Shown here piece after piece: positions 10,794-18,919 of a stretch of DNA of 33,267 nt. The notes under the pieces were generated by a model, which did not search any database, was not told where the DNA came from, and saw only the letters and a list, made by a program, of their open reading frames with translations. A program made the position numbers and the translations under genes. This stretch comes from Phaeobacter sp. HF9A. Its GTDB lineage: Bacteria > Pseudomonadota > Alphaproteobacteria > Rhodobacterales > Rhodobacteraceae. Every line of letters begins with the position of its first letter. The first letter of the stretch is position 1. The stretch covers positions 1 through 33,267 of the forward strand of contig NZ_JAATOX010000033.1 in NCBI RefSeq assembly GCF_011806385.1. The letters run 5' to 3'.

Positions 10794-11363
10794 ATGAAAA
10801 TCGACCTGAACCAACCTGATCGCCTGATCCTGAAGGGCACAACCAGCGTAATTTCGGCTGTATTGTGCGTGATCTTTCTTGTCGTACTGGGGCTCGGCCT
10901 GAGCGCGGCCATTGCCGGTGTCACCGCTGGCTGGGGCATCGCTGCGGGGAGTGTTTTCATTGGCGGGGGTATTTTATGGCTGGTTTACCACAAGACAGAA
11001 GTTGTGTTTGACCGCGCCAGCAACCTGCTGACGCTGCGCAAGACCATGCTGCATGGAACCCGTGAGGAAAACATCGCGCTGGAGAATGTAAAACAGGCCG
11101 ATGTGGATCTGAAACGCAACGATCGCAGCAACAACCGCCTACACGCCAGCTATACCTACCGGCTGTGTGTGGTGACGGGGGCTGCCCAGAACCGGCACCG
11201 TGTTGCCTTGTCCCATGGCTATACGACAAGCAAACGCCATCTTCTGACGGCGCAGAAAATCAATGATTGGCTGGGGGTCCCCGACGCGCCAATCGCGGTT
11301 GGCCCCAGCATGGCTGATGTGGCCGAGGTGATCAAAACCTTGGGTTTTGGCAAAGCCTCCTGA
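10794..11363 (+). CDS. Two-TM membrane protein of unknown function
   Basis: A 189-residue protein. Two adjacent hydrophobic helices occur at about residues 17-40 and 43-66, after a short polar N-terminus. The following part (KTEVVFDRASNLLTLRKTML, then a segment with several beta-strand-like stretches) resembles the PH-like soluble domains that follow twin helices in many small bacterial membrane proteins, but I do not recognise a named family. The ORF lies 34 bp upstream of the TMEM43-like gene and is probably co-transcribed with it. The ribosome binding site is weak. A joint role in the membrane with the TMEM43-like protein is an inference from position only. Confidence 0.7.
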   Translation: MKIDLNQPDRLILKGTTSVISAVLCVIFLVVLGLGLSAAIAGVTAGWGIAAGSVFIGGGILWLVYHKTEVVFDRASNLLTLRKTMLHGTREENIALENVKQADVDLKRNDRSNNRLHASYTYRLCVVTGAAQNRHRVALSHGYTTSKRHLLTAQKINDWLGVPDAPIAVGPSMADVAEVIKTLGFGKAS

Positions 11364-11396
11364 TCTGAATATCAAACACTTTCAAAGGCTTAAAAC

Positions 11397-12578
11397 GTGT
11401 CTCATTTTACTGAAACAACACAGGTTGGCCTGTTCTCCCGGCTGAAAAATGCGTTCAGGGGCATCGGGATCGGGATCGGCTTTATTGGCATCGCGGTATA
11501 TTTTCTGTTCTGGAACGAAGGCAACGCGGTCCGCACCGCGCGCGCCCTGGCCGAAGGCGCCGGGCAGGTTGTGTCCGTCGACAGCGCCAAGCTGGATCCG
11601 GCGAATGAGGGGCAGCTGGTTCACATCAATGGCCCGCTTAGCCTTGCGGCGCCGCTGGCGGACATAGCGCTGAACGTGACCGGCCCTGCGCAGGCGGTGC
11701 GCCTGGAGCGCAAGGTCGAGCAGTTTGCCTGGATCGAAGAGAAACAAAGCACCACAGAGACGAAACTGGGTGGCGGGCAGGAAAAGACCACGCAATATAC
11801 TTATCGTATGGATTGGACGGATGCCCCCGCCAGTGGCGCAAAGTTTCGGCTGCCGGAGGGGCATCTGAACCCGCCCTTACCGATCAAATCAAAAGTTATC
11901 CGCCAGCCAGAAGGCACCATCGGGGCCTTTAGCGTGAATGATGAGATCTCTGATCTGGGGGGCGCCACACCCATGCAGCTCACCGTTGCACAGGCAGAGG
12001 ACATCACCGATGCGCTGTCTCTGGATCATGCGCCAAAGCTGGTCGCGGGGCAGCTGGTCACCAGCAACGATATCACGGCGCCGCAACTTGGCGATCTGAG
12101 AGTGAGCTATCAGGCCTCCACCATCGACGCGGCCAGTGTGGTCGGTGTGCAGCGCAGCGGTGCGCTGGTGCCCTATACCGCGCAAAACGGGCGCGAGATC
12201 TACCTGGTCGAAGGCGGCTACAAGACCGCAGATGAAATGTTCCAGACGGCGGTTCGCGTCAACACATTCAAGACCTGGATGCTGCGTATCGGTCTGATGG
12301 TGCTGTTGTTTCTGGGCTTCAAGGCGCTGTTCGGCGTGGTCGATGTCATCGCCAGCATTCTGCCCTTCCTGGGCTGGATCACCGCCTCTGTGACCTCGCT
12401 GATCAGCCTCGCCCTGACGCTGGTTGTCGGCGGCACAACGATGGCGATCGCCTGGGTCTACTTCCGTCCGTTTCTGGCGCTGGCGATCCTTGCCGTGGCG
12501 TTGGGCGGCGCTGGCTTTACCGCCTACCGGCTGCGCAAATCGGCACCCAAGACGCCTGAGACACCCCAGACACCCTGA
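11397..12578 (+). CDS. TMEM43 family membrane protein
   Basis: A 393-residue homologue of eukaryotic TMEM43/LUMA. The topology fits the family: one helix near the N-terminus (residues about 22-41, ending FLFWNEGNAVRTARALAEG), a large extracytoplasmic region to about residue 290, then three or four helices at the C-terminus (about 296-385). The motif FWNEGNAVRTARAL and the later QFAWIEEK / TYRMDWTD pattern are characteristic. The GTG start at 11397 follows AAAGGC. In animals TMEM43 is an inner-nuclear-membrane/ER protein; in bacteria its role is unsettled. It sits directly upstream of the four-cysteine exported protein array with a 33-bp gap, and it may be the membrane partner of those proteins, which is an inference. 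Confidence 0.88.
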   Translation: MSHFTETTQVGLFSRLKNAFRGIGIGIGFIGIAVYFLFWNEGNAVRTARALAEGAGQVVSVDSAKLDPANEGQLVHINGPLSLAAPLADIALNVTGPAQAVRLERKVEQFAWIEEKQSTTETKLGGGQEKTTQYTYRMDWTDAPASGAKFRLPEGHLNPPLPIKSKVIRQPEGTIGAFSVNDEISDLGGATPMQLTVAQAEDITDALSLDHAPKLVAGQLVTSNDITAPQLGDLRVSYQASTIDAASVVGVQRSGALVPYTAQNGREIYLVEGGYKTADEMFQTAVRVNTFKTWMLRIGLMVLLFLGFKALFGVVDVIASILPFLGWITASVTSLISLALTLVVGGTTMAIAWVYFRPFLALAILAVALGGAGFTAYRLRKSAPKTPETPQTP

Positions 12579-12611
12579 TTTTTCAACCTATTCCACGTGA
12601 CAGGACACATA

Positions 12612-13079
12612 ATGAAACACTTCTACCTTTCGATTGCGATGATGTTTGGCGCTGGCACGCTTCAGGCCGGTCAATTCTGCGAACTTGACGGCACCGAAAT
12701 GTTCACATGCACCCTCAAAGGAGGCACCCAGGGGGTCGAGGTCTGCAACGCGGTATGGGCCGACGGCACAAAGGCTGCCTATGGGTTCTTCAAATCCAAC
12801 GGCACGGTCGAAAAGGAGATCCTGCAGGACATGGCGCCCATCACCGCCACGCCCTGGAATGGCATGGGCAATTTCATGAGCGAATCCGTGACCTTTGAAG
12901 GGGGCGGTGGCTACGCTTATGAAGTCTGGTGGGGCAGCGAGCAAAGCGCAGGTGCCACCGAGATGGGTGGCATCAATGTGCTGAAAAACGGCGCGCTGAT
13001 TGCTGACATTCGCTGTGACGCGGGGACTGTGAACAGCGACCTGACGTCGCTCATCGAGCTGATCGAAGCGGCGCAATAA
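12612..13079 (+). CDS. Exported four-cysteine module protein, paralogue 1
   Basis: A 155-residue exported protein. The signal peptide spans about residues 1-19 (MKHFYLSIAMMFGAGTLQA). The mature protein is a single module with Cys23, Cys33 and Cys45 spaced C-x9-C-x11-C, an aromatic/Gly-rich middle (SVTFEGGGGYAYEVWWG), and a fourth Cys135 followed by an acidic/hydrophobic tail. The same cysteine plan is found in the products starting at 13091, 14578, 15009 and 15917, so these are diverged paralogues. Start ATG 12612 is chosen because AGGACA precedes it and the signal peptide begins there; GTG 12597 is the alternative. Two periplasmic disulfides are likely. The function is unknown. Confidence 0.82.
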   Translation: MKHFYLSIAMMFGAGTLQAGQFCELDGTEMFTCTLKGGTQGVEVCNAVWADGTKAAYGFFKSNGTVEKEILQDMAPITATPWNGMGNFMSESVTFEGGGGYAYEVWWGSEQSAGATEMGGINVLKNGALIADIRCDAGTVNSDLTSLIELIEAAQ

Positions 13080-13090
13080 AGGTTCGTCCC

Positions 13091-13963
13091 ATGCAGCGTT
13101 TTCTCTCATCGACGACAGCCGCGTTGATGCTCGCCGGTTGGACCAGCGCCGCCATGGCGCAATCCGTTTGTGACGGTGAAGTCCTGTTCCAATGCGCGAC
13201 AGACAATGCGGATTTTCGGGAACAGATCACCGTTTGCGCTCAGGAACGGAGCTATTCCCTGACCCGTCATGCGCTGTCGTCAGGCGAGATGTACTATGAC
13301 ACGCCCCTGATCGCGGATGCCGACACCACATGGTTTCGCTGGTCCGAGGGCGATCAGGCGCAGGTGGAAATCGGGTTCTGGAGCACGGACCTGGCAGAGC
13401 CCGTGACCCTGCATGTGGACCTGCCATGGGATGACGTGAACGAAACGGTTGCCGATACGGGCGCGTATGACATGTGGCTGCAATCCCCGCATTGGCGCGC
13501 GCGTGTTGATCAAACCCTCTGCGCGTCTGGCACGGTTTACGCCGCGCCCGAGGGGCTTTGGCCTCCCCAGAATGCGCGGGGCCCGATCGGAACGTTTTTT
13601 TCCCAGGATGAAATCATACCTCGCGTTGACACGGTGGGCGTGGCACGAGTGTCTGACACGGTGGGCGTGGCACGGGTGACTGACACGGTGGGCGTGGCAC
13701 GGGTGACTGACACGGAAACGAGCCCAGAAGGCGTGCCGGTCTATTCCTCAGCGCGCCCTTCGGCCGCGACCCCGATCTGGTGGATGCTACAACCTGGCGA
13801 AACCGTTGATATCATTGATCGTGAAAATGACTTCATCGCGGTTGCCATCCCGACAAACGGCCTGAGCGGGTGCGTCTTGCGTCCCGAAGACCTTGGCAAG
13901 CCCTACACGGGCCCCTGCGCCACCGGATGGGTCGACGGCGTCTATCTTCAGAAAATCCAATAA
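13091..13963 (+). CDS. Exported four-cysteine module protein with in-frame repeats and SH3-like tail, paralogue 2
   Basis: A 290-residue exported protein. The signal peptide (to about residue 24, ending AAMAQ) is followed by the shared module with Cys27, Cys35, Cys49 (C-x7-C-x13-C) and Cys144. Residues 180-206 are three copies of a nine-residue unit DTVGVARV[ST], coded by a 27-bp tandem repeat. The C-terminal 75 residues look like an SH3-type domain: MLQPGETVDIIDRENDFIAV, two further cysteines, and GPCATGWVDGVYL at the end. The ORF begins 11 bp after paralogue 1. The repeat probably acts as a variable linker between the two domains. Role unknown; SH3-like tails in exported proteins often bind cell-wall or peptide ligands. 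Confidence 0.8.
   Translation: MQRFLSSTTAALMLAGWTSAAMAQSVCDGEVLFQCATDNADFREQITVCAQERSYSLTRHALSSGEMYYDTPLIADADTTWFRWSEGDQAQVEIGFWSTDLAEPVTLHVDLPWDDVNETVADTGAYDMWLQSPHWRARVDQTLCASGTVYAAPEGLWPPQNARGPIGTFFSQDEIIPRVDTVGVARVSDTVGVARVTDTVGVARVTDTETSPEGVPVYSSARPSAATPIWWMLQPGETVDIIDRENDFIAVAIPTNGLSGCVLRPEDLGKPYTGPCATGWVDGVYLQKIQ
13628..13708 (+). repeat. 27-bp tandem repeat, three copies, in frame
   Basis: Three consecutive 27-bp units begin with GACACGGTGGGCGTGGCACG at 13628, 13655 and 13682; a fourth starts (GACACGG at 13709) and breaks off. Units 2 and 3 are identical, and unit 1 differs by a few bases at its end. The period is a multiple of three, so copy-number change would keep the frame and change linker length. 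Confidence 0.95.
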
Positions 13964-13980
13964 CACCGCAGGCATGCGGC

Positions 13981-14002
13981 GCGTGGCCTCCTTGGGCCAC
14001 GC
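13981..14002. terminator. Hairpin between paralogue 2 and the YARHG-like gene
   Basis: GCGTGGCC at 13981-13988 pairs perfectly with GGCCACGC at 13995-14002 around a six-base loop. There is no U-tract, so an RNA-processing or attenuation element inside the operon is more likely than a full terminator. Confidence 0.45.
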
Positions 14003-14038
14003 CATGGAAACGATCACAGCTGTCCAAGGAGACGACAG

Positions 14039-14581
14039 ATGAAAACCCTCTTTCTAACCGCCGCGCTGGTCTGCGCTGCCGGCACTGCAAGCGCCCTGTG
14101 CGAGGACGCGTGGTATTTGCGGAACATGGCCTTCGACAGGGCGGGCTATTGCTTTGGCTCCCCCCTGGGCAAGTCGGTTTTTGACGCCAGCTGTTCGACG
14201 AAATCCCCCACCTTGAACGACTGGGATCAGCGTATGGTGAGCGCGCATAAAAAACTGGAAGCCAGCTACAGCTGCAAGATCAATACCAAGGCGCGCCATT
14301 TGGCCTCCTCCTTGATCGGCAAGCTGGATGATGTCGATCTGTTGCCGACCCTGTCGCAGTTCGAATCCTCCTGTGTCGGCTACACGGGCGCCCCGATCAC
14401 CCTGACCAGCGGCATCGGCATGCGTGACAGCTATCCGACGGGCACCATCGAGAGCGGCGCCACGGTGAACTTCCGGTTTGAACCTTGGGGCGGGTTTGAA
14501 TTCGTTGAGACCGAGACAGGCGCAGGCTGGATCCCCGAAGGATCAGTCAGCCCCGATGACTGCGTTGCTTTTGCAGGATGA
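14039..14581 (+). CDS. Exported YARHG/DUF4453-like protein with SH3-like tail
   Basis: A 180-residue exported protein. The signal peptide ends near residue 19 (CAAGTASA). The first domain contains WYLRNMAFDRAGYCFGSPLG at about residues 25-44, which resembles the RN-x3-[AD]R-x-GY-x-F core of YARHG-type domains and the cysteine-containing DUF4453 family common in Rhodobacteraceae. The rest (from about residue 117) resembles the SH3-like tails of its neighbours, ending ETETGAGWIPEGSV. It does not have the four-cysteine module, so it is an unrelated member placed inside the array. AAGGAG lies 8-9 bp upstream. Its stop overlaps the start of the next gene (ATGA), which implies translational coupling. 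YARHG domains are thought to act in the cell envelope. Confidence 0.78.
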   Translation: MKTLFLTAALVCAAGTASALCEDAWYLRNMAFDRAGYCFGSPLGKSVFDASCSTKSPTLNDWDQRMVSAHKKLEASYSCKINTKARHLASSLIGKLDDVDLLPTLSQFESSCVGYTGAPITLTSGIGMRDSYPTGTIESGATVNFRFEPWGGFEFVETETGAGWIPEGSVSPDDCVAFAG

Positions 14582-15006
14582 CCGGCGTCATGCGTTCTTC
14601 TCTGTTTTGTGCCCTGGCCTTTGCGCCCGTTGTTGCTCATGCGGACTGCCTGCCCGCTGAAACCCTCGCCCTCTCATGTGCCTTGCCGAGCGGCGGGCTG
14701 TTGGAGCTGTGCTGGACTCCCCAAGAGGCCCGCCTGGCCTATGACAAAGAGCCCGGCCTTCCCGCCGAAGTCAGCGTTCCCTTGGGAGATGTGACAGGGC
14801 TTACCGCGAGCGACTGGGCCTCCTCCACACTCCGCGGCATTGGGGCGAGCTATGAGGTTTACCTCTCTGGAGGGGTGGCAGGCATGAACCTGATCCGCGA
14901 CGACGGGGGCACCACTTCCTATGCCTGCGCAAGCGGCACGGCGAATGGCTCGCTTGCCGCGCTCAATGATGCGGCGCTTTACGCCCCCACGACAAAGGAG
15001 AATTAG
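14578..15006 (+). CDS. Exported four-cysteine module protein, paralogue 3
   Basis: A 142-residue exported protein made of the module alone. The signal peptide runs to about residue 22 (ending VVAHA). Cys24, Cys34 and Cys45 follow the C-x9-C-x10-C plan, and the fourth cysteine is Cys117 in SYACASG. The start overlaps the stop of the previous gene by four bases (ATGA), a sign of translational coupling; ATG 14590 is a second possible start. The following paralogue begins after two bases. The spacing Cys3 to Cys4 is the shortest of the five (72 residues). No function is known. Confidence 0.78.
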   Translation: MTGVMRSSLFCALAFAPVVAHADCLPAETLALSCALPSGGLLELCWTPQEARLAYDKEPGLPAEVSVPLGDVTGLTASDWASSTLRGIGASYEVYLSGGVAGMNLIRDDGGTTSYACASGTANGSLAALNDAALYAPTTKEN

Positions 15007-15008
15007 AC

Positions 15009-15917
15009 GTGCGATCATTTCTGACAGTATTCGGCGCCAGCCTGCTGTGCTCTGCGGGCATGGCACAGGCCTTTTGCGACGATATTCTGGCGACACAGGT
15101 GCTGTGTCTCACCGAGGACGCGGACGAAATCAAAGTCTGCGCCAGTCAGCACCCGGAAACAGGAGATCCTGTCTTGGAACTCCATGTGACACCTCAGATC
15201 TCGGATGGCCCGATCTTCCAGCTGGCCGCCGATGTGCCCTTTGGCATGACGCCGGGCACGGGGGGATTTCCGTGGGACGTGTATGAATTTTCCTTTGTGC
15301 ATGAGGGCGGCAGGGCCGTTCTTGGTATAAAAACAGCGATGGACACCACAGACACGTCCGACGCAGAGATTTGGCTGGACCTGTTCGGACGCGGAACCGC
15401 GCCGGACCGCAGCCTCGCTTGCATGCAACCAGCCCTGAGCGCGGAAATCCCGAACCTCTTGGCGTTACGACGGGTGTCCATGAACAGCATGCGCACCGGC
15501 CCAAGCGCCGAGAGCGCTGCCTTCTACCAGCCCAGCAAACCCATTACCGGAGCCACGCCCTACGGCAGTTATGACTGTCGCGAGGTCGCCGGCGTGTTGA
15601 GCAATGAAGGCACCGAAAACGGACAAATCGCGCTCTACGCCGCGCCGACAGATGACGCAGCGATCCTGGGCTATGCATTCCCGTCCGACCTCGGATCCGC
15701 TTTCGAGTGCGCCTTTGAGGACGGCTATTCCGGCGTCATCTGGATTGATCCCGAAAAAGGCGATGGCGCGGGGGGCTATATGGCCCAGCTCGACTATGAC
15801 GAACGGCTCGCGGCATGCTCAATGACGCCCGAAGACTGGCCGCCAAACATGGTCTATTGGGGCAAATGCTCCAGCGCCTGGGTCAAGCAGGGCAATCTCG
15901 CGGGTTTCGGGGGCTGA
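15009..15917 (+). CDS. Exported four-cysteine module protein with C-terminal Cys-rich tail, paralogue 4
   Basis: A 302-residue exported protein. It starts with GTG; the signal peptide ends near residue 21 (SAGMAQA). The module has Cys23, Cys33, Cys44 (C-x9-C-x10-C) and Cys138, with the middle segment VYEFSFVHEGGRAVLGIKTA resembling the equivalent part of paralogue 5. Residues from about 190 form a second region with five or more cysteines and the ending GKCSSAWVKQGNL, which matches the ends of paralogues 2 and 5 (G-x-C-x2-[GA]-[WF]-V) and suggests an SH3-like fold. Its stop codon overlaps the start of paralogue 5 (TGATG). Function unknown. Confidence 0.8.
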   Translation: MRSFLTVFGASLLCSAGMAQAFCDDILATQVLCLTEDADEIKVCASQHPETGDPVLELHVTPQISDGPIFQLAADVPFGMTPGTGGFPWDVYEFSFVHEGGRAVLGIKTAMDTTDTSDAEIWLDLFGRGTAPDRSLACMQPALSAEIPNLLALRRVSMNSMRTGPSAESAAFYQPSKPITGATPYGSYDCREVAGVLSNEGTENGQIALYAAPTDDAAILGYAFPSDLGSAFECAFEDGYSGVIWIDPEKGDGAGGYMAQLDYDERLAACSMTPEDWPPNMVYWGKCSSAWVKQGNLAGFGG

Positions 15918-16966
15918 TGCAGATGAAGCGCTGTGTCTCGTCGGCCATTTTCGCCCTCTCTGCGGCTCCGGCATTTGCGAGTTGCGGCGACGGTGGGACG
16001 CAGATTTTCTATTGTGAAACCGAAAACGCATCTCGCATCCAAGTCTGCCTTCGGGATGAAACCGTGCAGTTCCTTGGTGGTCCGGATTTGTCTGATCCAG
16101 TCTATGACCTGTCCATGCCAGTGCGGTTCATGCCCTATCTTTCAACCGGGATCGCGCACTCCGAAGAGGACTTCAGCTACATACGTTTTTATGAGGGAAA
16201 GCGGGTTTTCACCGTCGGTGTGGATCGGGATCTGGAATTTGCCTCGGTGGCGCTGGGGATGGCGTATGACGCCCTTCCTTCGAACGAGGTGGCCTGCAAC
16301 CCGGATGCGATTGTCGATACCTTCCAAGTGCTCGACCAGTTCGCCCAGACCACGGGCCGGGTCGCTCCGGTTGTATCCGTTCCCGAGGTATCGCCGGACT
16401 GTGGGCCGATCCAAACGCTGCGCCCTGCGGAGTGGATGGACGACAAGGACGTCAGCCCGATCCACCTGGGGCCCGGAGAGGTCACAACAGAGGTGATACC
16501 GCTGGATCAGAACGTGCGCGTCTGTGGCGCGCCGGTTGATGGCTGGCAGGGGGTACGGTTTCAGTCTTATGGGTTTGAATGCGACTTGAACGCGCCGGAT
16601 GCAATCGGCGCTGTGTGCAGCTCCGGCTTTGTGCGCCTGTCTCAACTTCCTGAAATCTCTGCCCCGGCGTCAGAGGTTTCCCGCCCACAAGCGCTCGCCT
16701 GTCAGGCCGGCGGCTTTCGATTTGTGATGGTACGCGCCGACAACGGCGCCATCACGATCGAAAACGATCAGCTGCGCTTGACCCTGCCGCCGGGATCGGG
16801 GCCAGGCACCACCAGCGATACCGGGTCGGAGCAAGTCATGCGCGTGAACGACAAACTGACCCTTTCGCTCTCGCATGAAACGCTTGCGCTACAGGCGTCC
16901 CACAGCGAGCAGGGCCAGCAATCCGGCCTCTGCGTCCCCGTTGATCTGAGCGACGTTTCAAAATGA
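15917..16966 (+). CDS. Exported four-cysteine module protein with long C-terminal extension, paralogue 5
   Basis: A 349-residue exported protein. I start it at ATG 15917, which overlaps the previous stop (TGATG) and places the signal peptide at the N-terminus (ending APAFA, residue 21); a frame open from 15815 would bury the signal peptide. The module carries Cys23, Cys33, Cys44 (C-x9-C-x10-C) and Cys127. A middle SH3-like region follows (LGPGEVTTEVIPLDQNVRVC and AVCSSGFVRLSQL). The last 85 residues form another beta-rich segment with two cysteines. It is the last and largest member of the array, closed by a terminator-like hairpin. Function unknown. Confidence 0.8.
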   Translation: MQMKRCVSSAIFALSAAPAFASCGDGGTQIFYCETENASRIQVCLRDETVQFLGGPDLSDPVYDLSMPVRFMPYLSTGIAHSEEDFSYIRFYEGKRVFTVGVDRDLEFASVALGMAYDALPSNEVACNPDAIVDTFQVLDQFAQTTGRVAPVVSVPEVSPDCGPIQTLRPAEWMDDKDVSPIHLGPGEVTTEVIPLDQNVRVCGAPVDGWQGVRFQSYGFECDLNAPDAIGAVCSSGFVRLSQLPEISAPASEVSRPQALACQAGGFRFVMVRADNGAITIENDQLRLTLPPGSGPGTTSDTGSEQVMRVNDKLTLSLSHETLALQASHSEQGQQSGLCVPVDLSDVSK

Positions 16967-16979
16967 TCTGACACCTGTG

Positions 16980-17017
16980 CCTGCTGCGGGTGCCCCCGTG
17001 GCAGGTCTTGCTTTTTC
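16980..17017 (+). terminator. Intrinsic terminator after the exported-protein array
   Basis: CCTGCTGCGGG (16980-16990) pairs with CCCGTGGCAGG (16995-17005) through nine Watson-Crick and two G-U pairs around TGCC, followed by TCTTGCTTTTTCT. It ends the array and partly insulates the next gene. Confidence 0.6.
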
Positions 17018-17041
17018 TATCCAGTGTTCAGGACGACCAAA

Positions 17042-17824
17042 ATGATATTCAATCGAGCTCTTGCCACCACCGTTGCATTGATCCTGTCGCATGGCGCAGC
17101 GTCGGCCGCGGATCTGGCAACCCTCAGCAGTGCAGACGTCTCCCAATCTGTCGCGCAGATTCGCGAAACCTTTGAAGCGCAGGGCTATCGCTGTGAAAGC
17201 CTGGAGGTGATGGACCCTGACGATGGCAGAATTGATGAAACGGGTTGCGCGCTTTGGAAGGACGCGTTTTCCTTTTCCGACGCGGAGACGCGCGTGATGT
17301 GGACCATGCGCTATGAGAAAGACAACGAGATGCGGATCGTCGTCTTTGATGCGCAGCAAAGCCAGGATCGCGCCTTGATGATTGGTCAGGCCACGTTTTT
17401 CGAAGACGCGGCGATCGAGATCTCCTCCTCGGCGTTCCTGGAGGAAAGGCTTGCTGTATTTTCCGATGCCGCGCCGACATTCGGCACAATTGATACCTCT
17501 GCGGATGCGCTGGATCTGTGCTTTCTGATGTCGAAAGAGCCCAAGGTGCTGACCCCTTCGCGCTTGCCCGAGTCTGCATTGGAAGAGAACCAGAGGTTTC
17601 TTGGCGCCCCAATCAGCCCGGCAGCGATCCTTTGCGAACGCTGGATGAACGAGAAACGCGACGCGGTGGTGGATTTTGCACAATCAGATGCAGGTCCAGC
17701 CTATGCACGCAAGATCGTGTATTACGCCAAGGACGGGAAACCTCAACAATATATGGACATGCTTTGGAATGTTCCGGCGGTGGTGGACTGGAGCAAAGGA
17801 AACCTTCCCACGGAGGACAAATAG
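17042..17824 (+). CDS. Exported protein of unknown function
   Basis: A 260-residue protein with a signal peptide (MIFNRALATTVALILSHGAA, cleavage near residue 22). The mature part has four cysteines (GYRCESLEV, DETGCALW, LDLCFLM, AILCERW) but their spacing does not match the neighbouring module, so it is not an obvious paralogue. ATG 17042 is preferred because AGGACG lies 7-8 bp upstream and the signal peptide starts there; GTG 17024 is the alternative. It sits behind the terminator that closes the array. I do not recognise the family. Confidence 0.7.
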   Translation: MIFNRALATTVALILSHGAASAADLATLSSADVSQSVAQIRETFEAQGYRCESLEVMDPDDGRIDETGCALWKDAFSFSDAETRVMWTMRYEKDNEMRIVVFDAQQSQDRALMIGQATFFEDAAIEISSSAFLEERLAVFSDAAPTFGTIDTSADALDLCFLMSKEPKVLTPSRLPESALEENQRFLGAPISPAAILCERWMNEKRDAVVDFAQSDAGPAYARKIVYYAKDGKPQQYMDMLWNVPAVVDWSKGNLPTEDK

Positions 17825-17867
17825 CGTTTTCTGGCGAACAACTTTTTCTAGCAAACAATAGGTCATT

Positions 17868-17908
17868 GGCCATGAGGAGGTCCGTTTGCCGCGGAGCCCC
17901 TCATGGCC
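17868..17908. terminator. 10-bp inverted repeat after the exported-protein block
   Basis: GGCCATGAGG (17868-17877) is perfectly complementary to CCTCATGGCC (17899-17908), with a 21-base spacer. There is no U-tract. It lies 44 bp after the last exported gene, so it could be a factor-dependent terminator or an mRNA-stabilising structure. Confidence 0.45.
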
Positions 17909-18056
17909 CTCCCCTTGCGGCACATGGCTTTCAAAGCTCAGCGCAGCCGAATTGACCAGCGCCAAACCCCAGGCATAAATGCGCTGCCAAGACACAAAAC
18001 AGAGATGGCGGGGCGTTGCTCACGCGGCCATAAAATTCCCCTTAACTCCATACCCT

Positions 18057-18066
18057 ATATTAATAT
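18057..18066. promoter_or_regulatory. A/T-rich region with ATATTAATAT palindrome before the luxR-type gene
   Basis: The 100 bp before the regulator is the most A/T-rich part of the window. It contains the perfect palindrome ATATTAATAT about 52 bp before the start codon. It is a reasonable promoter or operator location but no consensus can be assigned. Confidence 0.3.
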
Positions 18067-18118
18067 CTTAGATTTTGAATTTACCTTTGCGGTGCCGCCA
18101 AAAGTCTGAGATTGAACG

Positions 18119-18919
18119 ATGAATGCCCCCTTTGACCTGATGGTGGATATCACCGAGGCACCTTCTCTTGATGCGAAATATGAAATTTTTTCGAATTTCA
18201 TCAAGTCGGAGTATGGCTACATCGGTGTGAACTACGTCCTTTTCACGGACACGCGGTCGCTAGAAACCATTCACGGCAATCATGCCTCAAAACGGTCGGG
18301 CCTCCCGGATGAATGGCGCGAGATCTATCAGCGAAACAACTATGCTCGGGACGATCTCGGCATGCGGATGGGGGCTTTGGGCCATAAACCCATGCTTCAA
18401 TCCAGCTTTTACCGTCTCTTGCATGAGGAAAAGCTGCCCCCGAATATAGCCCGTGTGGTGAGCGGGGTGCGCGATTTCGTGTCCTCTGGCGTGGTCATCC
18501 CGCTTGAAGCCAATGGGATCAGAGCAGTCGTGGGACTTTATGATACCTCAGGAATAATCGCCAACCATGACGCCCGCTTCGCGAAGCGCTGGCCCGTCAT
18601 TCAAACACTTGCCAATCACCTGCACCTGAGTAGCGACTGGTCCAGCGACCTGATCACGCAAATGGGCTTGAGCGAGATGAACCTAAAGGTGCTGCGCCTG
18701 AAAGCGCAGGGCCTGCGCGTCAAGGAAATCCTGTATGAAATCCAGCGCGACAACCCCAAAACTGTCGATAATCACATGCGACGGCTGCGCAAGGCTTTGG
18801 GCACACGCAACGATATTGAAACTGTTCTGCGCGCGGCAAAGCTCGGTCTGCTCCAAGAGGACAGCCTGAAGCCTCACCAGGTCAACCCCCAGCTCTATGA
18901 GGCGCTGACGCGCCGGTAA
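18119..18919 (+). CDS. LuxR-type regulator with autoinducer-binding domain, orphan
   Basis: A 266-residue regulator. The N-terminal part (to about residue 170) fits the autoinducer-binding domain: Trp66, Tyr70, Asp79 and Gly124 correspond to the conserved W57, Y61, D70 and G113 of TraR/LuxR. However the P71 position is Leu80 and the W85 position is Gln94. The C-terminal part (184-246) is a LuxR-type helix-turn-helix with LSEMNLKVLRLKAQGLRVKE, TVDNHMRRLRKALG and an AAKLGLL ending. No luxI-type synthase is in the window, so it is an orphan receptor here. It may sense a non-classical ligand or a neighbour's signal, and could control the exported-protein block upstream or act elsewhere; both are inference. 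Confidence 0.87.
   Translation: MNAPFDLMVDITEAPSLDAKYEIFSNFIKSEYGYIGVNYVLFTDTRSLETIHGNHASKRSGLPDEWREIYQRNNYARDDLGMRMGALGHKPMLQSSFYRLLHEEKLPPNIARVVSGVRDFVSSGVVIPLEANGIRAVVGLYDTSGIIANHDARFAKRWPVIQTLANHLHLSSDWSSDLITQMGLSEMNLKVLRLKAQGLRVKEILYEIQRDNPKTVDNHMRRLRKALGTRNDIETVLRAAKLGLLQEDSLKPHQVNPQLYEALTRR

Follow-up and report, generated by a model that had tools for sequence, protein, structure and literature searches.

Here we analysed a stretch of 33,267 nucleotides from Phaeobacter sp. HF9A (contig NZ_JAATOX010000033.1; the window, to which all positions refer, is this whole stretch, and genes are named by their start position), which carries an array of five genes for exported proteins built on a module with four cysteines, within a larger block of ten genes that we call the cassette. 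We propose, with a probability of about one half, that the array is mobile and encodes a series of diverged proteins which, in the periplasm, inhibit glycosidases that cut the cell wall. We infer the inhibitor function from relatives found elsewhere; export (signal peptides were judged by eye throughout), the targets, the loop that would contact them and regulation by a LuxR-type protein are inferences too. The genes of the array, with one repeat inside the second, are the following.

12612 to 13079, plus strand: exported single-module protein, the clearest family member (AlphaFold2 pLDDT 90.3; core-family profile E 8e-21; cysteines at residues 23, 33, 45 and 135).
13091 to 13963, plus strand: exported protein with an N-terminal four-cysteine module and a possible SH3-like C-terminal domain (weak module link; MliC below cut-off at E 0.008, SH3_3 at E 0.067).
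13622 to 13711 (approximate limits), plus strand: in-frame three-fold repeat of DTVGVARV within 13091 (sequence and orthologue alignment).
14578 to 15006, plus strand: exported single-module protein, start possibly 14590 (95% against the core family by hhalign, with 101 columns aligned; match to the 12612 family at BLAST E 1.2e-8).
15009 to 15917, plus strand: exported protein with a four-cysteine module and a C-terminal region with further cysteines (four cysteines invariant in 13/13 rows; BLAST E 0.011 to the 15917 module).
15917 to 16966, plus strand: exported protein with a four-cysteine module and a further C-terminal stretch of some 200 residues, 15923 being the likelier start (core profile E 0.001-0.002; hhalign 93.6% to the core over 81 columns).

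All five products share one plan, in which the signal peptide is followed at once by the first cysteine (C1), C2 comes after 7 to 9 residues, C3 after another 10 to 13, and C4 lies near the end of the module; the three gaps measure 9, 11 and 89 residues in 12612, 7, 13 and 94 in 13091, 9, 10 and 71 in 14578, 9, 10 and 93 in 15009, and 9, 10 and 82 in 15917. As the initial annotation had it, the five open reading frames with a signal and a four-cysteine module are all present, and the cysteines are invariant in the 9 to 18 orthologue rows of each gene (18/18 for 12612, 15/15 for 13091, 9/9 for 14578, 13/13 for 15009 and 9/9 for 15917, several rows being one genome fetched by two tools). Because of this invariance, and because the anchored pattern recurs in 2 to 8 of 20,000 shuffles of each mature sequence, the pattern is not due to chance. 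The stop/start overlaps reported at 14578 and 15917 occur in the window, but both hang on the choice of start codon: that at 14578 exists if translation begins at 14578 and not at the second in-frame start, 14590, the inner one from which the TM1040 copy is annotated, and at 15917 the window has MQMKR in place of the TQMKR of its orthologues, the pP13_b copy being annotated from the inner ATG that is 15923 here. The operon of five paralogues described at first is also too small, the conserved unit running from 10794 to 18919 and the array holding a sixth exported protein, 14039, that had gone unmentioned. Within 13091, the DTVGVARV unit stands in three in-frame copies (13622-13711) as against one in 6/6 orthologues aligned, and this triplication is apparently a recent expansion in the window's copy.

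The modules of 12612, 14578 and 15917 almost certainly form one family, and probably all five do. Profile-profile comparison with the core family (hhalign) gave 99.8% for 12612, 95% for 14578 and 93.6% for 15917, and a broader pooled profile gave 95% for 14578, 91% for 15917, 19% for 13091 (24 columns) and 1.5% for 15009 (20 columns); the 13091 module reached 19 to 41% spanning 20 to 27 columns only, and the pair 15009-15917 13% or 2.5%, depending on order. Among the 136 pairs of 17 profiles, seven of the 15 module or core pairs exceeded 4%, the other eight standing at or below this listing limit, and a single one of the remaining 121 pairs did so, namely the C-terminal domains of 13091 and 15009. 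BLAST among all segments, run without composition correction, ranked 12612-14578 first (E 1.2e-8), the C-terminal parts of 13091 and 15009 second and 15009-15917 third (E 0.011, 93 collinear residues), with 13091-15009 at E 0.41 over 147 residues. Judged from these sequences, the old family held together by a disulfide plan that had been proposed is firmly supported for three members (12612, 14578 and 15917), with 15009 a suggestive case and 13091 a weak one. An alternative in which only three of the modules are homologous and 13091 and 15009 reached the cysteine spacing by convergence would account for the low pooled-profile values of these two and for the eight pairs at or below the listing limit. 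We find it unlikely, as the invariant cysteines stand at matching places, the local alignments 13091-15009 and 15009-15917 are collinear from residue 2-3 or 7-8, and the low-confidence model of 13091 has eight strands in its first 107 residues.

The four-cysteine family is found across Pseudomonadota and in jumbo phages. A search with a 12-member profile found it in 61 of 292 genomes of the order and, in a sample of 398 genomes of the phylum, in 12, of which six lie outside the window's taxonomic family. Run against the genome that holds the window, the profile returned 12612 (E 1e-48), 15917 (E 0.036) and nothing else at E values up to 10. Because single-copy relatives exist elsewhere in the order and the phylum, the presumed tandem expansion is better described as a cassette built from a more widespread module than as one private to this operon. 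Single-copy distant relatives of 12612 (23-34% identity) adjoin dnaG-rpoD in many of the loci read, and 12612-type genes adjoin dnaX and recR in Mameliella and Tropicibacter (L085 and L086), genes being identified by eye in both cases. One open frame (L105, G075:C1:844075-844851) holds two tandem modules, the module thus duplicating within a gene too, and on two enterobacterial plasmids (L199, L200) the module gene lies downstream of a shared FtsX-like permease, a SUMF1-type enzyme and two hypothetical genes (lipoprotein-like by eye). The statement that the module carries no family name is borne out by the absence of a convincing match in Pfam, NCBIfam, PHROGs or the Protein Data Bank (PDB): no module scanned scored above the Pfam cut-off or in NCBIfam, the Pfam scan of the 15917 product gave no family, PHROGs gave chance-level matches only, and PDB sequence searches with the family returned weak unrelated rows only.

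AlphaFold2 predicted 12612, from 12 sequences, as a mainly beta protein of nine strands and a C-terminal helix (pLDDT 90.3, pTM 0.84), two of the five models being good (pLDDT 90 and 88) and three poor (65-73); the pairing of strands and the closure of a barrel are presumed. For 13091 the model was of low confidence (pLDDT 58.5), and a fold common to all five modules is putative. Foldseek against the PDB gave no match at E 0.001 for either model, the best for 12612 being at E 0.058 and the weak rows, with low TM scores, including CRABP, nitrophorin and a designed barrel. As for the pairing of the four cysteines, a check that the initial annotation had called for, 82 distinct proteins of the 12612 family and the wider family were compared: 71 have all four, six keep only C2 and C4, four, which come from related phages, keep only C1 and C3, and in one just C4 is missing, a count that leaves out L160, L161, L175 and L180 (duplicate or partial) and the plasmid relatives L200-L203. 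Because the cysteines are lost in pairs, this pattern implies that the disulfides would be C1-C3 and C2-C4. Klebsiella phage Miami has two module genes with complementary losses (L156 2393-2851 and L157 1965-2423), one keeping C1 and C3 and the other C2 and C4.

The function that we propose is suggested by the neighbours of relatives outside the order. At seven of 36 non-rhodobacterial loci (23 genome loci, five of seven plasmid matches and eight phage genes), the module gene adjoins, or stands one gene from, a gene for a peptidoglycan glycosidase (GH19, GH108 or PF11860), a count that includes one GH19-like call by eye and one locus (L202) with a gene between. In three genomes of one genus, the GH19 frames as called overlap the module gene by 4 bp (G843 and G907, the module starts being called non-ATG) or a PF11860 muramidase (E 3e-115) lies 21 bp from it (G878). 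A GH19 gene also stands near the module gene in a Helicobacter prophage, and at an Ideonella plasmid locus GH19 and PG_binding_1 lie downstream of it. The gene order in Paraburkholderia sprentiae (L202) is VgrG, GH108, one protein, module, one protein and PAAR, and in Burkholderia stagnalis (L203) VgrG is followed by an effector whose C-terminus is GH19-like by eye (Pfam gave none), the open frame of the module beginning 4 bp before the effector stop. Because these two type VI effectors (L202 716-3049 and L203 1287-3908) align over 588 residues at 52% identity and diverge after that, in their catalytic ends, each being followed by a module-family gene, the catalytic part has apparently been exchanged and the downstream gene kept. 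Judged by eye, the module has a signal peptide and the enzymes of G843, G907, G878 and the prophage have none, an arrangement usual for exported wall enzymes paired with a periplasmic antidote. In G878 (L183 336-4367), tail-sheath-like genes (by eye), possibly of a contractile injection system, lie a few kb away from the muramidase and its module.

Under the model that we favour, family members would be periplasmic inhibitors, or immunity proteins, of peptidoglycan-cleaving glycosidases. Elsewhere a member and its adjoining enzyme would make up an effector or endolysin with its antidote, and here diverged copies, some with further domains, would stand without an enzyme as orphan inhibitors, shielding the periplasm from glycosidases delivered by rivals, phages or conjugation machinery. 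Sec export would come first and the disulfides C1-C3 and C2-C4 would then lock the fold, leaving a loop between central strands to contact the enzyme; the candidate is a conserved tryptophan-glycine loop (W62, G64 and mostly G66, in the numbering of A2). The targets are probably enzymes from outside, because none was found next to the array, and the further domains and the YARHG protein would fit a location at the wall, since YARHG has been proposed to bind peptidoglycan.

The phage relatives came to light through both structure and sequence. A Foldseek search of BFVD with the 12612 model matched four jumbo-phage proteins (E 2e-6 to 2.5e-5, query-normalised TM 0.68-0.73), from phages EL (the top match), PhiEaH1, RisingSun and Klebsiella phage Miami. 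Profiles matched two genes of Miami (3e-22 and 1e-10), PhiEaH1 (1.6e-5) and, weakly, RisingSun (0.005), and gave no match to the EL protein; a sequence search from a relative outside the order reached phage OBP (E 1e-4) and the Helicobacter prophage (3e-9), and there was a sequence match to PhiEaH1 at E 4e-5. A tblastn search with 12612 itself returned no phage, and its orthologues found no relative in viral_contigs, where a phage-type query matched two contigs and a third query gave a single short match (L198). A signal-like segment starts 8/8 phage or prophage proteins read (by eye), and most neighbours of the jumbo-phage module genes are hypothetical.

The other features of the cassette are these.

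10794 to 11363, plus strand: membrane protein of 189 residues (by eye), the first cassette gene (orthologues 72-88% identical in 6/7 cassette records, the seventh, L075, being a remnant).
11397 to 12578, plus strand: TMEM43-family membrane protein (Pfam PF07787, E 1.1e-65).
14039 to 14581, plus strand: exported YARHG and DUF4453 protein of a different family, interleaved in the array (Pfam E 3.1e-18 and 1.4e-36).
16979 to 17006, plus strand: terminator-like hairpin with a T-rich tail, after the array (12-pair stem, z -2.81).
17024 to 17824, plus strand: exported conserved cassette protein of an unnamed family, start possibly 17048 (orthologues 72-77% in 5/7 cassette records, partial in L075, none in L025).
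18119 to 18919, plus strand: LuxR-type regulator with an autoinducer-binding-like domain (Pfam Autoind_bind above cut-off at E 1.4e-5, GerE narrowly below it at 7.6e-5).

Pfam gave no family above cut-off for the 10794 product and a weak PepSY_2 match, below cut-off, for that of 17024; terminator-like hairpins as a class were not above chance in the scan (11 sites vs 9.2 expected). The block of ten genes from 10794 to 18919 recurs in identical order in Tritonibacter mobilis, Epibacterium sp., Phaeobacter piscinae and the 131-kb plasmid of Ruegeria sp. TM1040, and dN/dS values of 0.06-0.26 (up to seven orthologues each; the 18119-L080 pair saturated) place all ten genes under purifying selection. 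The flanks vary among genome copies of the cassette, the P. piscinae and TM1040 plasmid copies sharing surrounding conjugation genes; in these two species the cassette sits on conjugative plasmids. Around the window's own copy, a Pfam scan of ten flanking genes found neither a wall glycosidase nor any gene for conjugation; among the products recognised were GcrA, an ATP sulfurylase, an aminotransferase and a photolyase-related protein. A scan of genome_contigs with 12612 orthologues yielded 11 loci of graded content: 12612 alone (L084, L085, L086), with 13091 (L082), with 13091 and 15009 (L081, L083), the six array genes on a contig that ends before the upstream part (L076), the six together with the membrane pair, the rest being rearranged (L079, L080), and the complete set of ten (L077, L078). 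The TM1040 megaplasmid carries the membrane pair with 12612, 13091 and 15009. Because of this gradation, the data suggest that the cassette may have grown by gene addition. Decay occurs as well, T. mobilis F1926 (L075 9925-11454) holding a deleted remnant in which fragments of 13091 and 17024 are adjacent and the LuxR-type gene matches in two frames. By protein search, 15009 was strong in 5/292 genomes of the order, three more at E 0.006-0.0096 not being counted as cassettes, and it was present in 4/61 relatives, the window's genome included. The LuxR-type gene is inverted and upstream in L079 (60%), and its best match in L080 is inverted and downstream (43%, perhaps a paralogue); because it is moved and inverted in these two loci and further LuxR-type relatives lie near it there, the regulator may be an independent piece of the cassette. 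Nothing on the cassette was found in the open-access literature searched.

Several observations weigh against the array being a set of glycosidase inhibitors. The adjacency to enzymes is uneven, with 3/23 genome loci (all of one genus), 3/5 plasmid loci read and 1/8 phage genes; these neighbours were identified by eye, Pfam being run for suspects only and for no matched control loci, and the plasmid loci came from a GH19-linked query. The cassette of the window is not itself encoded next to such an enzyme, none appearing among the ten neighbours scanned, and PADLOC gave two chance-level matches only on the ten cassette proteins. The similarity of 13091 and 15009 to the core-family profile is below significance, which ties them weakly to the family, and no known inhibitor fold appeared among the 50 listed of 779 PDB matches (E up to 10) of the 12612 model. 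Finally, the placement of rhodobacterial single-copy relatives beside dnaG-rpoD or dnaX-recR would suit a housekeeping role equally.

Such a role is one alternative, though we think it improbable. The products would then be envelope proteins whose module adjusts the cell's own lytic transglycosylases or some other process at the wall, the cassette being an envelope operon with its TMEM43 and YARHG proteins and its regulator; it would explain the fixed places of single-copy members (by eye, in several genomes at dnaG-rpoD), and it agrees with the TMEM43 protein being without an assigned role and with the lytic transglycosylases of the VirB region near the TM1040 and P. piscinae copies. A cassette that is patchy, partly plasmid-borne and decayed in one strain argues otherwise, as do the enzyme pairs in type VI and prophage settings. 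A conjugation accessory, which would protect the wall of donor or recipient or exclude entry by restraining VirB1-type transglycosylases, is very unlikely: the copies on pP13_b and on the TM1040 131-kb plasmid do lie between relaxase/coupling-protein genes and the VirB operon with its lytic transglycosylase genes, but the TM1040 megaplasmid copy lacks such neighbours in the stretch read, the ten genes scanned around the window's copy include no conjugation gene, and the replicon of T. mobilis A3R06 was typed non-mobilizable. Ligand-binding or adhesive beta-barrels of a lipocalin-like kind, unlinked to glycosidases, would suit the mainly beta model and its weak CRABP, nitrophorin and designed-barrel rows, but with no significant match and enzyme pairs that point elsewhere we give them little credence.

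If the inhibitor model is true, it would supply a name and a test for proteins annotated as hypothetical in many Pseudomonadota, would point to what an exported protein found in several jumbo phages may do, and would mean that orphan-immunity arrays travel between marine bacteria by way of conjugative plasmids. With the type VI and GH19 pairs, the inhibitor claim can be put to a direct test on two proteins in purified form. A wider and more tentative view, which we hold to be doubtful but possible, is that a two-disulfide anti-glycosidase superfamily links three arms races, those of type VI and endolysin antidotes, of jumbo-phage exported proteins and of plasmid-borne inhibitor cassettes; the phage members would block lysis or superinfection, and the roseobacter cassettes, beside a quorum-type regulator, would have grown from one gene by diverged copies and added domains.

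The known systems nearest to this one include the c-type lysozyme inhibitors MliC and PliC, which are small exported proteins. MliC (PF09864) was rejected as a relative: 13091 scored 16.6 bits (E 0.008) against a curated cut-off of 22, the other four had no match, a search of the whole genome found none at E 0.001, and profile-profile comparison of the five modules and the pooled family with 30 MliC sequences gave 0.2-0.9%, the control halves reaching 99.94%. The likeness ends at size, export and the sub-cut-off match of 13091, profile similarity being 0.9% at most. Against a profile of two real SH3_3 domains (hhalign), the C-terminal part of 13091 reached 9.8% and the others at most 2.5%, which is only a hint of SH3 in 13091.

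Others are inhibitors of peptidoglycan hydrolases. PMC10933484 describes XAC2610 (X-Tfi) as made with a signal peptide and inhibiting a GH19 effector, and assigns XAC2610, Tsi1 and PliI-Ah a beta-propeller topology; Tsi3, according to PMC3792639, inactivates a muramidase effector. The likeness to XAC2610, Tsi1 and Tsi3 is the inactivation of a peptidoglycan hydrolase of the same cell, which we propose for the module family by analogy, and the difference is that this family has no convincing PDB sequence match and the window cassette no recognised enzyme beside it. The beta-propellers of PliI, Tsi1 and X-Tfi were absent among the 50 listed of 779 PDB Foldseek matches, none standing at E 0.001. 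PseM immunity is described as a Nudix-type protein in PMC12494544, and the type IV effectors of Stenotrophomonas as including GH-19-like and other ones in PMC11253643. YARHG, for which PMC3355149 proposes peptidoglycan binding and notes the pairing with DUF4453, is represented here by 14039, which has both domains, the four-cysteine module being a different family. The acquired interbacterial defence arrays of gut Bacteroidales, as described in PMC12247911 and PMC10470768, stack immunity-like genes without effectors on mobile DNA. The window would resemble them in its five modules, in having no wall-enzyme effector among its ten neighbours and in the conjugative-plasmid copies of its cassette in two species, with an immunity role that is presumed, and it differs from them in that the stacked modules are here probably diverged members of one family.

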